Shown: in pieces, positions 4,936 through 24,516 of the stretch
How the letters are laid out: every line of letters starts with the position of its first letter
How positions within the stretch are numbered: position 1 is the stretch's first letter
Notes under the pieces: model-generated
Told to the model about the DNA's origin: nothing
What the model saw: only the letters and a program-made list of their open reading frames with translations
Databases searched by the model: none
Made by a program: the position numbers and the translations under genes
Origin: Saccoglossus kowalevskii
Lineage: Eukaryota; Hemichordata; Enteropneusta; Harrimaniidae
Assembly (NCBI RefSeq): GCF_000003605.2
Contig: NW_003112980.1
Coordinates: 81,699-106,214, forward strand
Length of the DNA stretch: 24,516 bases
Direction of reading: 5' to 3'

Positions 4936-5013
4936 AAAAGCCAGATGTCCTTTTTTGGAGGAATGTAATCTGGGATATTTTAAACATTGAAATAAATATT
5001 GAAGATTGTGTAT

Positions 5014-5735
5014 GCACTACTGGGGCTGAACCTTGCATCACAGGGGTTGAACCATGCACCACTGGGGTTGAACCATGTACCACTGGGGTTGAAACATGCA
5101 CCACTGGGGTTAAACCATGCACCACTGGGGTTAAACCATGCACCACTGGGGTTAAACCATGTACCACTGGGGTTGAAACATGTACCACTGGGGTTGAAAC
5201 ATGTACCACTGGGGTTGAACCATGCACCACTGGGGTTGAACCATGCACCACTGGGGTTGAACCATGCACCACTGGGGTTGAACCATGCACCACTAGGGTT
5301 AAACCATGTACCACTGGGGTCGAACCATGTACCACTGGGGTTGAACCATGCATCACTGGGGTTGAACCATGCATCACTGGGGTTAAAACATGTACCACTG
5401 GGGTTGAACCATGCACCACTGGGGTTAAAACATGTACCACTGGGGTTGAACCATGCACCACTGGGGTTGAAACATGTACCACTGGGGTTGAAACATGTAC
5501 TACTGGGGTTGAACCATGTACCACTGGGGTTGAACCATGTACCACTGGGGTTAAACCATGTACCACTGGGGTTAAACCATGTACCACTGGGGTTAAACCA
5601 TGTACCACTGGGGTTGAAACATGTACCACTGAGGATGAACCATGTACCACTGGGGTTGAACCATGTACCACTGGGGTTAAACCATGTACCACTGGGGTTA
5701 AACCATGTACCACTGGGGTTGAACCATGCAGTACT
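5014..5735. repeat. 21-bp minisatellite, about 34 copies
   Basis: The unit CCACTGGGGTTGAACCATG plus two bases repeats with a 21-bp period across about 720 bp. Variants are mostly GTTGAA/GTTAAA, ACCATG/AACATG and GCA/GTA. Because 21 is divisible by three, one reading frame on each strand stays open (seven-residue units such as TPVVHGS), but it has no domain or credible start and lies in a presumed SH2B intron. Treated as non-coding satellite DNA that directly follows the Helentron-like element. Confidence 0.9.
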
Positions 5736-11000: not shown

Positions 11001-12039
11001 AAATGTCTTTCCGTTTGCAGAAACACAAAGCATAAACTATCAGAAATTCGTAACACATAATTCGAGTGATGGTATAACAAAATAACTTATCAATCCATCA
11101 AAAAAGTATAAAAAACATTTTTATAAACAATTTTTAATTATATAAATACACTTTGAAAAGAAACAAGATTCATAAATATAAATCTATTTGAATACATTCT
11201 CACTACAAATTACACAATACTTATTTTCTAATGAAGTTTCTTCACAGCACAAACTATTGGAATCATGCACACGTGTAAGTAATTCGGTGACACATTTTAT
11301 AGCTACGCCCAAAATAGTCCATCATTTATTACGCAACTGTAACCACATGACATCATTCTGTTAACATCCACACATTTTCATAAAATCTCCATGCACTTTT
11401 TGACCTTTCATAAGTACAATACACTACAATTTACTCCAGAAAAACAATTTTCTTGGTACATTCCTACAATCTTGCATACTAATGCGGGATTCAGACACAT
11501 TCCAAGCTGAACAATTTGCTTGGACTAATAACAATTAAAGAGAGTAAAATATGACAATCAGCAACAAGACTCATATACCTGTTGAAATGACTAACATAAG
11601 ATTCATCCTTTGTAGTTCTATTAGTTTTGGGGTCATTAATTAAATATTTCCTGGGTTGGACAAACACACTTGTGCTCATCTAGCAGTCTTTCAGGATTTC
11701 ACTAGTGAGCTTGCCATAATTGCTTTTTTCTTTCTACTGAGTGGTACAGTTGAAGCTTCTCTACATCTTTTTGCACAGTCACTAACGTCATTGGAGACTA
11801 ATTAAGAAAGCCTTGGGGACATTAGTGGCAATCAGCTGAGGTAAGTCTCCTGCAAGCAGCTGATCTCAGCAAATCATACTAGTAGACACTGATAAAGAGT
11901 TCACCATTTACAAGCCTCGAAATGAGGTCTGTAAAAGATTTTACTTCCATCACTACAAAAATGTATACGATTTGTATCCAGATCCGTCAATTTAAATTAC
12001 ATTGATTCACAATGGAAGTTGCATCATACTGACCCTCTG

Positions 12040-14325
12040 AGCTCTCACTGGACTATAACAAGAATTGGACGGACTGGGCTCTAACTGGGCATATAACAAG
12101 AATTGGACGGACTGGGCTCTCACTGGGCATATAACAAGGATTGGGTCCTACTGGGCTTTCACAGGACATTTAACAAGGATTGGGTCCTACTGGGTTCTCA
12201 CTGGGCATATAACAAGGATTGGGTCCTAGTGGGCTCTCACTGGGCATATAACACGGATTGGGTCTACTGGGCTCTCACAGGACATTTAACAAGGATTGGG
12301 TCCTACTGGGTTCTCACTGGGCATATAACAAGGATTGGGTCCTACTGGGCTCTCACTGGGAATATAACAATGATTGGGTCCTACTGGGCTCTCATTGGGC
12401 ATATAACAAAGTTTGGGTCCTAGTGGGCTCTCATTGGGCATATAACAAGGATTGGGTCCTACTGGGTTCTCAAAGGACATTTAACAAGGATTGGGTCCTA
12501 CTGGGTTCTCACAGGACATATAACAAGGATTGGGTCCTACTGGGCTCTCACTGGGCATTTAACAAGGATTGGGTCCTACTGGGCTCTCACTGGGCATATA
12601 ACAATGATTGGGTCCTACTTGGTTCTCACATGACATTTAACAAGGATTGGGTGCTAGTGGGCTCTCACTGGGCATATAACAAGGATTGGGTCCTACTGGG
12701 CTTTCACAGGACATTTAACAAGGATTGGGTCCTACTGGGTTCTCACTAGGCATATAACAAGGATTGGGTCCTACTGGGCTCTCACTGGGAATATAACAAG
12801 GATTGGGTCCTACTGGGCTCTCATTGGGCATATAACAAAGATTGGGTCCTAGTGGGCTCTCATTGGGCATATAACAAGGATTGGGTCCTACTGGGTTCTC
12901 ACAGGACATTTAACAAGGATTGGGTCCTACTGGGCTCTCACTGGGAATATAACAAGGATTGGGTCCTACTGGACTCTCATTGGGCATATAACAAAGATTG
13001 GGTCCTAGTGGGCTCTCATTGGGCATATAACAAGGATTGGGTCCTACTGGGTTCTCACAGGACATTTAACAAGGATTGGGTCCTACTGGGTTCTCACTGG
13101 GCATATAACAAGGATTGGGTCCTACTGGGCTCTCACTGGGAATATAACAAGGATTGGGTCCTACTGGGCTCTCATTGGGCATATAACAAAGATTGGGTTC
13201 TAGTGGGCTCTCATTGGGCATATAACAAGGATTGGGTCCTACTGGGTTCTCAAAGGACATTTAACAAGGATTGGGTCCTACTGGGTTCTCACTGGGCATA
13301 TAACAAGGATTGGGTTCTACTGGGCTCTCATTGGCATATAACAAAGATTGGTCCTAGTGGCTCTCATTGGGCATACAACAAGGATTGGTCCTACTGGTTC
13401 TCACAGGACATTNNNNNNNNNNNNNNNNNNNNNNNNNNNNNNNNNNNNNNNNNNNNNNNNNNNNAAGGATTGGGTCCTACTGGGTTCTCACAGGACATTT
13501 AACAAGGATTGGGTCCTACTGGGTTCTCACTGGGCATATAACAAGGATTGGGTCCTACTGGGCTCTCACTGGGAATATAACAAGGATTGGGTCCTACTGG
13601 GCTCTCATTGGGCATATAACAAAGATTGGGTTCTAGTGGGCTCTCATTGGGCATATAACAAGGATTGGGTCCTACTGGGTTCTCAAAGGACATTTAACAA
13701 GGATTGGGTCCTACTGGGTTCTCACTGGGCATATAACAAGGATTGGGTTCTACTGGGCTCTCATTGGGCATATAACAAAGATTGGGTCCTAGTGGGCTCT
13801 CATTGGGCATACAACAAGGATTGGGTCCTACTGGGTTCTCACAGGACATTTAACAAGGATTGGGTCCTACTGGGTTCTCACTGGGCATATAACAAGGATT
13901 GGGTCCTACTGGGCTCTCACTGGGAATATAACAAGGATTGGGTCCTACTGGGTTCTCACAGGACATTTAACAAGGATTGGGTCCTACTGGGTTCTCACTG
14001 GGCATATAACAAGGATTGGGTCCTACTGGGCTCTCACTGGGAATATAACAAGGATTGGGGCCTACTGGGTTCTCACAGGACATTTAACAAGGATTGGGTC
14101 CTACTTGGTTTTCACATGACATTTAACAAGGATTGGGTCCTACTTGGCTCTCACATGACATTTAACAAGGATTGGTCCTACCTGGTTCTCACAGGACATT
14201 TAACAAAGATTGGACCCTCTGGGCTCTCACTGGACATACAAAAATTGGACCCCCCCCCCCATCACTGGGCCATAACAGGAATTGGATCCCCTTGCATGCT
14301 TGGGCTCTCTCACTGGATTGTTTTT
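12040..14325. repeat. 39-bp minisatellite in SH2B intron 1
   Basis: The unit contains CTGGGCATATAACAAGGATT and GGGTCCTACTGGG and repeats every 39 bp across about 2.2 kb. Several variants recur in ordered groups: GGGCATATAAC, GGACATTTAAC, GGGAATATAAC and an AAAGATTGGGT..TAGTGGG form. This implies higher-order duplication of multi-unit blocks. Both edges are more diverged than the centre. The 13-codon period leaves long frames open (HWAYNKDWVLLGS-type units), but a 1-bp loss near 12264 and a TAG at 12747 break them. An N gap and a probable false duplication lie inside. Confidence 0.92.
13413..13464. other. assembly gap (52 N)
   Basis: The 52 undetermined bases lie within the 39-bp minisatellite. 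The 381 bases to the left (13032-13412) equal the 386 bases to the right (13465-13850) except for five GGG-to-GG losses, all near the gap edge. This indicates unmerged overlapping contig ends rather than missing unique sequence. Confidence 0.98.
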
Positions 14326-20753: not shown

Positions 20754-21130
20754 TTTAAAGTACACCAATAACATTCTCATTTCTTCACCTTAACAAAGGT
20801 CATCCAGAATATTAACATTGATTAATTTAACATTTGGTCTTGTGCATTTTTTGTTTCAACAACAATGCTCTTTTACGAGAATTCGATTTACAGCATTCCT
20901 TGACATTTTTTCACAGGCTACTACTACTACTTACCATTTAACTAGGACTAAAAATAAATCATACTGGATACCGATAACAAAAAAATAGGATACCATGGCA
21001 ACTCATAATCCGTTTATAAACGAACAAATTGGATATGCAATCATAATATTGACACACAATTCAGTCAAAATTAATACGGTTACATAAACACCTGTCAGCA
21101 ATTAATTTCCTATTTGATAGTGATACTTAC

Positions 21131-21784
21131 TTTCGGGGGGCTGTAAAATTCCAGCATATGTCCTCCGTCCGTTTTAACAAGCATCAGTTTACTTTTTTCC
21201 CACTTATTTTTCCCGTGTTGTGGATCTGGGAAAATAAGTTGGTTGACTATTCCTTCTTTCAAAATGTCTTGTTTTGATCGCGTCGTGTGTTTTGATCCGT
21301 GGTTTAAGTCCTCTGAATGCTTGCGGAATTTCGATCGCACTGTTTCTCGCATACTTTTGAAAGACATTTTTTTGGTGAGTTGTGTCTTGGAAGAACCAGG
21401 CATTTTTGTTTTTTCTGCCTTGGAATGTGAAGAATGTGATTGATTATTTTGGTCTTGGGTCGACGTGGTTTCCTGTTGAAAATGCGAATGGTGAAAATCC
21501 ATCTCACCGCCCTGTCTTCCGCCATTTAGATTAGTCCCTCTTCTGTCGCCAGAAGCATTGAAACCCTTGTGCGCCTCAACCTCAAAATGGTCCAGAAAAT
21601 GATCGACATACCGACGTGCAAATTTGTTACCGGCATCCGGCTCGTCAAACTCAGGGTTGTCTGTGAGAAACTGACGGAAATGTCGTGCAAATTCAGCTGC
21701 CGCAGCTTGGGCATGATGTTCACATAATTCCGCCCAGTCGACCGTAGTCTCGGTTTCATGATTGTGTATACTGCCGTTTTCCAT
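21131..21784 (-). CDS. SH2B: SH2B-family adaptor protein, first coding exon (dimerisation domain and start of PH domain)
   Basis: This exon encodes residues 1-218 of an SH2B/APS/Lnk-type adaptor, a cytoplasmic scaffold that binds activated receptor tyrosine kinases and JAK2 through its SH2 domain. The ATG at 21784 has A at -3 and G at +4, and an in-frame TGA lies upstream. Residues 17-70 match the phenylalanine-zipper dimerisation domain: WAELCEHHA, then EFARHFRQFL, then FARRYVDHFLDHFEVEA, with aromatic residues spaced along amphipathic helices. Residues 76-135 are polar and low-complexity. Residues 138-170 are basic (KKMSFKSMRETVRSKFRKH), like the pre-PH linker of SH2B1. Residues 173-218 are the first PH strands (DILKEG, KSKLMLVK, LEFYSPPK). 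Translation stops matching after AAA, where GTAAGT gives a strong phase-0 donor. The family (established knowledge) is usually about 580-760 residues in vertebrates, so most of the protein lies outside this exon. Family assignment is firm; orthology to a particular vertebrate paralogue is not claimed. Confidence 0.93.
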
Positions 21785-23280: not shown

Positions 23281-23640
23281 TTAACCAAAATCAAACAATT
23301 TTGTATGTTTCTACACATGAAATAAAAAACGATTTGTCACAGGTTGTTTTCCATGGTTACTGATGAGTGTCCATGGTGTGCTGTAACATTGTTACATATT
23401 AGCAAGAACACTGATATTTGTACACATGTACACGTGAGGTGGGGGTGATTCATTGACTGTTCACAAAAACAGGACTTAAGTGCATGTATTATGATCCATA
23501 TAGATATCAGCCTGTATATTCAGGTATTTGACCTTCAGACTGTGTCTAATGTCATGTCTATATAAACCTTGTAAAGGTGAAATCTTGTAAAATATTAATA
23601 TATTTATCATTGTTTCTATTCATACATTTGTAGCGTGATT

Positions 23641-23698
23641 ACACCGACTAGACTTCCAATACGTATACGCAGCAACCAAACTTCCAATACTAAACAGT
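23641..23698 (+). other. possible 5' non-coding exon end of the PhnD-like gene
   Basis: A good splice donor (ACA then GTAAGT) occurs at 23699. A good acceptor with pyrimidine tract TTTATTTCTCTTGAAG ends at 23963, eight bases before the start codon at 23971. Together they suggest a leader exon ending at 23698 and a 265-nt 5'UTR intron. The start of the leader exon is not defined; 23641 is only a nominal limit. The segment contains a short direct repeat of about 12 nt (CTTCCAATAC core) at 23655 and 23679. Transcript evidence is needed, so confidence is low. Confidence 0.3.
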
Positions 23699-23776
23699 AA
23701 GTTTGTAACACTTTTAGTTCTGTAATATGTTTTTGTAACTGATCAAAAATAGTTGTGAGTTTTACTTTGCATACCA

Positions 23777-23935: not shown

Positions 23936-23970
23936 TAATGATTATAGTTTATTTCTCTTGAAGTTGAAAG

Positions 23971-24184
23971 ATGAATGACATCATGACATCAGATGTGACG
24001 CCGCAAAGATGCCTCCGATTCATCACATACCTTGCTCCAAGTGTTCCAATTGAATTCTTTCAAACTCTGACGTATTATTTAGAAGAGAAACTGAACATAG
24101 CGTCCTTTCTAATGTATGAAAGTCGATGGTCTGGTCCAAATCCAGATGCAGTTGACCCTTTCACTCTCAATATAGCTGATGTTG
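23971..24184 (+). CDS. PhnD-like phosphonate/phosphate-binding-type protein, first coding exon (partial gene)
   Basis: The ATG at 23971 (A at -3) opens 71 codons plus one base, ending GTTG before a GTAAGC donor (phase 1). Residues 15-29 (LRFITYLAPSVPIEF) and 49-64 (YESRWSGPNPDAVDPF), then ADVG at 69-72, reproduce the N-terminal pattern of the bacterial substrate-binding family of phosphonate/phosphate ABC transporters (PhnD-like, Pfam Phosphonate-bd). In those proteins a TYLAPS-type strand is followed by a helix, an E.R.SGP motif, a DPF motif and D.GF. In bacteria these are periplasmic proteins with signal peptides. Here the N-terminus is short, acidic-polar and has no hydrophobic signal, so a cytosolic product is inferred. 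The rest of the gene lies to the right of the window or beyond the intron starting at 24185. The family match is by motif memory only. The ligand and role in an animal are unknown. Confidence 0.72.
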
Positions 24185-24516
24185 GTAAGCTTCATAGGTT
24201 GTGTTTGAGTCACAGTCTGCTCATTACTATTGATATTATATACGACCAAGATGCTATTAACAATTATATTAACTACTATTACGAAGATCGATAATGTGAC
24301 ATTATTTATAAAACTAGTGTGGATTTTGGTGGATACCGGTAATCATTTTGAACAAAGATGCAATGATTTCAATAACATTAGTACATTTGATTTTTGTGAC
24401 CATGGATTTAGTGTCATGAATTAGTTTTCGCGTATCTGTTGACCGACTTAATTAGTTGATTATTAGCTGAATTGCTGTGTTATGTCTGTCATCGTTTAGG
24501 CAGGCGAGGTCCTGGA
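24185..24516 (+). other. start of the next intron of the PhnD-like gene
   Basis: Begins with donor GTAAGC. The next exon should start with two bases completing a Gly codon and probably encode a Phe-containing continuation of ADVG. Possible acceptors near 24499 and 24503 give Gly-Arg or Gly-Glu, which do not fit the family, so the next exon is probably outside the window. Confidence 0.55.

Follow-up and report, generated by a model that had tools for sequence, protein, structure and literature searches.

The stretch of DNA analysed here (the window: 24,516 nucleotides, C699:81699-106214 in a Saccoglossus kowalevskii assembly of 572 Mb and 4830 contigs) carries close to its end, at positions 23971-24184, what is on sequence evidence the real first coding exon of a PhnD-superfamily protein with a pocket like that of AioX and ArrX. 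The gene to which this exon belongs appears to be real and is a probable acquisition from bacteria, and it can now be placed more exactly than in an earlier sequence-only reading of the same DNA. With moderate confidence, we take it to be an animal gene of several exons whose product is a cytosolic oxyanion-binding protein of the Venus-flytrap kind; the gene would have been gained by ancient horizontal transfer from bacteria whose homologues mostly stand alone and are devoid of a signal peptide. In bacteria, proteins of the periplasmic binding type are the usual means by which uptake and sensing systems catch their ligands, and a stand-alone binding protein with the pocket of an arsenic sensor in animal cells would, if true, represent an intracellular ligand receptor of a new kind. 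To our knowledge, eukaryotes are not known to sense arsenic or phosphate inside the cell in such a way. We found no publication that describes this gene in animals in the open-access literature, a result that does not in itself establish its absence, and similar unannotated proteins of invertebrates may already be present in public databases.

The exon (plus strand, 214 nt, 71 codons plus 1 nt, residues 1-71) runs from the ATG at 23971 to a GTAAGC donor at 24185, in phase 1; both the 71-codon exon and its phase-1 donor had been proposed in the sequence-only reading, and both are confirmed in the sequence. The start of intron 1 fills the remainder of the window (24185-24516, plus strand), with an identical donor in a second copy of the gene, and directly beyond the window the contig consists of 6660 N, possibly an assembly gap. 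On the far side of these lies the last exon of copy 1 (C699:113750-113934), which terminates in a stop codon. Copy 2 (C699:120590-122179, the same as L004:5091-6680) is found on the same contig, 15 kb downstream of copy 1, and contributes exon 1 (C699:120590-120794), exon 2 (C699:121630-121777) and exon 3 (C699:122034-122179), all with AG/GT borders, the last two in frame and bounded by GT-AG introns. The intron phases are 1-2-1, and both the frame and the conserved motifs are restored across the two junctions seen in copy 2. The claim of a spliced gene is borne out by these introns and phases in exons 1-3 of copy 2 and by the last exon of copy 1 on the same contig. When a composite of copy 2 exons 1-3 and the copy 1 last exon was searched against the whole own genome, the matches were the five exons just described and nothing else. 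A middle part of the gene, of about 63 residues and at least one exon, was not seen: a search of the genome with the corresponding segment of L014, an Acidobacteriota relative, found nothing, this search having no positive control. The expected place of the missing exon falls within the N run in copy 1 and past the contig end in copy 2, and in bacteria the missing segment holds the pocket His and Asp.

The unseen middle exon, the N run adjoining copy 1 and the tandem array that adjoins copy 2 at the contig end would all fit a decaying or non-functional relic of a transferred gene. We nevertheless consider a relic improbable: each of the five exons that could be read has an open frame and splice sites, and the last one ends in a proper stop codon; those pocket residues that can be seen are kept; and between the two copies exon 1 (7 of 199 sites differing, 3.5%) diverges less than the start of intron 1 (14 of 215 sites, 6.5%). 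Four of the seven changed exon 1 codons are replacements and three are silent, and the lower divergence of exon 1 than of intron 1 gives weak evidence of selective constraint. The two copies could represent a tandem duplicate or two uncollapsed haplotypes.

The signals around the start codon are in part those expected. The Kozak-like context that had been proposed is matched only partially, by the A at -3; the A at +4 departs from it. Just 5' of the ATG of copy 1 there is a pyrimidine-rich AG (23962-23963), part of a possible acceptor of a 5' UTR intron (23951-23970, plus strand), and a similar acceptor is present in copy 2, so that a non-coding exon upstream of exon 1 seems plausible. An exon of copy 1 spliced at this AG cannot extend the N-terminus, because an in-frame TGA (23965-23967) intervenes two codons upstream of the start; copy 2 has no in-frame stop between AG and ATG. 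Since the ATG of copy 1 stands 17 residues ahead of the first strand motif, the protein, judging from the position of the start codon, probably has no signal peptide, as had been proposed.

The scaffold itself is animal, as had been held, since an exon of an SH2B-type adaptor gene with a Phe_ZIP domain (68 bits) lies on the minus strand at 21110-21784, about 2.2 kb upstream of exon 1; it is not part of the gene described here. The GC content of the gene's exons is 36-43%, that of the window 35% and that of the SH2B exon 44%. A bacterial contaminant or a chimeric scaffold has nothing in its favour except the bacterial homology, and the introns of the gene make it very unlikely; with GT-AG splicing, an exon GC near that of the host, the SH2B exon 2.2 kb away and tandem repeats on the same contig all against it, we give this explanation practically no credence.

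Homology with bacterial proteins can be detected even with the first exon alone. Compared with 52 bacterial proteins, exon 1 reached 40.1 bits against L014 and 24.9-40.1 bits against the six relatives that share its insert (see below), all other rows scoring 15.5 bits or less; the best of 200 shuffles of exon 1 scored 10.6 bits, and the shuffles rather than E-values are the control here, because the 52-protein set had been gathered with the longer splice. Exon 1 alone gave no match in Pfam or PDB, one chance-level match in NCBIfam (E 0.23, to an unrelated family), one match in plasmids (E 5) and nothing in a single-sequence scan of genome contigs; with the splice, a single-sequence scan of viral contigs found nothing, nor did a search of phages. 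Against PF12974, exons 1-3 of copy 2 (166 aa) score 26.3 bits (E 5.6e-6), just under the cut-off of 27, and the composite scores 34.3 bits, over it. Membership of the PhnD superfamily, proposed in the sequence-only reading, is upheld by these scores. A PF12974 search of the whole own genome returned a single match (E 8.14, on C52) that we judged to be due to chance; this search is low-powered for split genes, because the real exons were missed as well.

Specificity is another matter. Exons 1-3 of the animal splice score 25.6 bits against TIGR01098, whose cut-off is 112, and do not match the PhnD equivalog TIGR03431 (cut-off 261.1), against which L014 scores 56.2 bits. The nearest solved sequence to the splice is ArrX, with a weak match (E 0.0051). 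A profile of 21 bacterial relatives (drawn from 83 bacterial loci and including two periplasmic proteins, L027 and L029) ranks ArrX first (2.3e-46), followed by AioX (3e-42), PtxB (9.5e-25) and PhnD (2.7e-19). As single queries, L014 finds ArrX (3.8e-16), AioX (4.9e-10) and PtxB (9.3e-6), with E. coli PhnD not appearing at E up to 0.01, and L017 finds AioX (6.3e-23), ArrX (1.4e-17) and PhnD (1.2e-4). The phosphonate/phosphate-binding PhnD type named in the sequence-only reading is too specific, because ArrX and AioX are nearer to the bacterial relatives than PhnD is; what survives of that assignment is the superfamily, which the animal protein has in common with PhnD and with PtxB/HtxB (PF12974, TIGR01098, TIGR03431), including the SxSG oxyanion-binding turn.

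In plasmids, tblastn found three cyanobacterial proteins with 31-35% identity, and when 84,980 species genomes of bacteria and archaea were scanned with a profile, 101 relatives came up, 80 of which were kept: Acidobacteriota (39-44%), Chloroflexota, many cyanobacteria, a bin from Spirochaetes and three from gammaproteobacteria. This census is biased, because cyanobacterial sequences made up three-quarters of the alignment on which the two search patterns were based. With L014 as query, 5 of 148 genomes of its class match at E up to 1e-15; in its phylum 5 of 396 genomes match at E up to 1e-5, two of them strongly; and in the Chloroflexota, the phylum of L017, 40 of 400 genomes match at E up to 1e-10. 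In a tree of 53 rows (the animal and 52 bacterial rows), the animal protein forms one clade (100/100) with five proteins of the Acidobacteriota class (L014-L016, L107 and L108) and one from the Chloroflexota (L109), and is sister to these six (98/87). A 42-row tree, which draws on 41 of the 83 bacterial loci, is concordant (100/98), and the seven-member clade is nested in a larger group (97/84), whose 23 rows come from the draws of Chloroflexota and Acidobacteriota. The SGP...DPF insert that exon 1 carries in common with its Acidobacteriota relatives is present in all seven members of the clade (as SAP...NGF in L109). Its column P53 is filled in 3 of 82 bacterial rows (L014-L016) and is a gap in the other 79 of the 82 (L041, which has no intact frame over the N-terminus, is excluded), and it is filled in L107-L109 too; the insert should not have shaped the tree, because columns filled in fewer than 60% of rows were dropped.

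The bacterial affinity that had been claimed holds in both trees, each of which places the animal protein within the bacterial radiation, and this supports a bacterial origin from an unsampled donor. The direction and date of the transfer are to be taken as inferred, because the animal branch is long (about 1.0), the animal row is a composite of the two copies with filler and the animal is the sole eukaryote in the tree. The same material can be read differently, as an old eukaryotic PhnD-like family that is not animal-specific and that was inherited vertically and patchily lost, the gene being an ordinary catalogued one of invertebrates and the bacteria outgroups or recipients. It would agree with such a history that the animal protein is sister to the six insert-bearing bacteria and not nested inside them, that several introns mark the gene as old in its host and that close Acidobacteriota relatives are as rare as 5 in 148 genomes of the class. 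However, the clade stands among broad bacterial groups, with 40 of 400 Chloroflexota genomes and many cyanobacteria having relatives, and the acidobacterial copies L014 and L015 each have a glutamate dehydrogenase gene of bacterial type no more than about 2 kb away, for which reasons, on a comparison with bacteria, we regard vertical descent as unlikely, although far from negligible, and retain transfer from bacteria as the preferred reading.

If the gene did come from bacteria, the state in which it arrived can be approached through its relatives. The sequence-only reading was right that there are no ABC-transporter neighbours, no ABC family being found in the 15 of the 16 window ORFs that were scanned; a kinase domain was not found in these ORFs either. 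Where that reading probably erred was in treating the stand-alone, signal-peptide-less state as a change made in the animal, since most bacterial relatives already have it. Among 79 motif-bearing bacterial rows (L041 again excluded, L027, L029 and L082 lacking the motif, and the motif match of L025 possibly spurious), 64 leave less than 20 residues ahead of the first strand even when these are counted from the farthest start codon, 47 have an in-frame stop within 20 codons upstream, and 15 have room for a longer N-terminus. Three gammaproteobacterial rows lack the motif, and two of them, L029 and L082, begin with a long run of hydrophobic residues that resembles an export signal. The genomic neighbourhoods agree: around 12 of the 83 bacterial loci, where 56 neighbouring ORFs were scanned (ORFs that overlap the query gene being excluded, together with some of the short ORFs), one ORF matches ABC_tran and one BPD_transp_1, and no recurrent ABC operon is seen; the sole transporter family seen twice is MFS, and no linked histidine kinase is found near the animal's nearest bacterial kin, both among the 25 of 65 families listed. 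As most bacterial relatives have no room for a signal peptide and show no recurrent ABC operon, the stand-alone, cytosolic state was probably inherited rather than gained in the animal. This suggests that export was lost in bacteria, before the transfer, and that the sequence-only reading, in which a transporter part formerly exported became cytosolic in an animal, probably has the events in the wrong order. The closest relatives in the tree, which are signal-peptide-less PhnD-like proteins of Acidobacteriota, Chloroflexota and Cyanobacteriota (for example WP_126391092.1, annotated 'PhnD/SsuA/transferrin family'), have a similar N-terminus; unlike these intron-less stand-alone proteins, the animal one sits on a long branch and does not have the 4-residue deletion that follows SGW in L014-L016.

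The gammaproteobacterial proteins L027 and L029 form a separate case. They are AioX-like and have the FIC cysteine, and their genes immediately precede that of a sensor histidine kinase (L027:1772-4284 and L029:1648-4100), as expected of AioX-like sensors rather than of transporters; AioX is itself paired with the kinase AioS. Both loci are probable oxyanion-sensing two-component systems. Also among the relatives, 8 of the 13 cyanobacterial loci listed have a convergent ORF of 419-445 aa after the PhnD-like gene, a possible partner, and the two such ORFs that were examined (L013:4798-6063 and L031:3838-5097) match TPR models.

As given in PMC5908839, AioX binds arsenite through Cys106, in a pocket that comprises Tyr88, Cys106, Tyr131, Ser161, Ser163, His192 and Asp210; PhnD has Gly65 where AioX has the arsenite cysteine, and phosphate binds AioX at the same site too. 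In the copy 2 splice, Cys72, Tyr107, Ser139 and Ser141 align to AioX Cys106, Tyr131, Ser161 and Ser163, so that four of the five AioX pocket residues falling within exons 1-3 are kept. The fifth, Tyr88, has no aligned counterpart, a nearby position being Tyr in copy 1 and Cys in copy 2; the alignment is unsure at this point because the insert lies there. In the bacteria, C62, Y96, S126, S128, H153 and D171 (the last two in L014 numbering), which were aligned to AioX, are invariant in all 21 rows of the alignment used for the profile, and the arsenite-type cysteine is present in 82 of 82 bacterial rows (L041 excluded), an invariance that is partly built in, because FIC was part of one of the two search patterns. 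The fold of the family is represented by an AlphaFold2 model of L014 (pLDDT 91.2, pTM 0.86). The animal protein compares with two kinds of known system: (i) with the AioX/ArrX sensors (PDB 6esk, 6esv, 8ed5 and 6x6b), which are its nearest solved sequences, it shares the pocket Cys, Tyr, Ser and Ser, but unlike them its gene is spliced and eukaryotic, with no signal peptide and no linked histidine kinase seen; (ii) from PhnD it differs in having a cysteine for Gly65, and no ABC partner or export signal is seen.

We propose that the product is an expressed, single-domain protein of the periplasmic-binding-protein or 'Venus flytrap' fold that would stay in the cytosol and hold a small oxyanion (phosphate, arsenite/arsenate or a similar acid) between its two lobes. 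The SxSG turn and the Tyr would hold the oxygens, and the cysteine would be able to bond arsenite or to hydrogen-bond phosphate. Closure of the lobes might then be read by a partner, as a sensor kinase reads AioX, or the protein might simply buffer its ligand. Such a protein would also point to oxyanion binding as a function of the relatives that stand alone in Chloroflexota, Cyanobacteriota and Acidobacteriota.

A more specific reading is that the protein is an arsenic sensor or buffer, binding arsenite through the AioX-type cysteine and taking part in arsenic handling. Its attractions are that the arsenite-binding Cys106 of AioX, which PhnD lacks according to PMC5908839, has an equivalent in Cys72 and in every bacterial row counted, that the bacterial profile and the single relatives come nearest to ArrX and AioX, and that the periplasmic outgroup proteins L027 and L029 adjoin a sensor histidine kinase, like AioX. 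However, no arsenic gene family occurs near the 12 bacterial loci, among the 25 of 65 families listed; Tyr88 goes without an aligned counterpart; the AioX site also takes phosphate, according to PMC5908839; and the FIC search pattern favours cysteine. We therefore find an arsenic role doubtful, and for the oxyanion-binding protein that we prefer, a phosphate-like ligand seems about as likely as an arsenic-like one. Only tentatively, and as an unlikely possibility, would we go further and suggest that animals have in it a cytosolic AioX-like oxyanion receptor, that is, a captured bacterial sensor with a thiol pocket and with neither a transporter nor a kinase of its own.

The contig is also rich in repeats. 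Soon after exon 3 of copy 2, a 31-bp tandem array of about 43 copies (L004:6893-8213) reaches the contig end. In the window, a 39-bp array of about 56 copies (12037-14238) and a 21-bp array of 34 copies (5012-5728) look like minisatellites and not like genes, despite repeat-like Pfam matches; because their unit lengths are multiples of three, they give long open frames on one strand or on both. Upstream of copy 2, L004:2396-2647 is 73% identical over about 270 bp to window positions 23498-23757, perhaps as a dispersed repeat, and between the two copies a 219-aa open frame (L004:1535-2191), which has no Pfam match, resembles by eye the end of a LINE reverse transcriptase.
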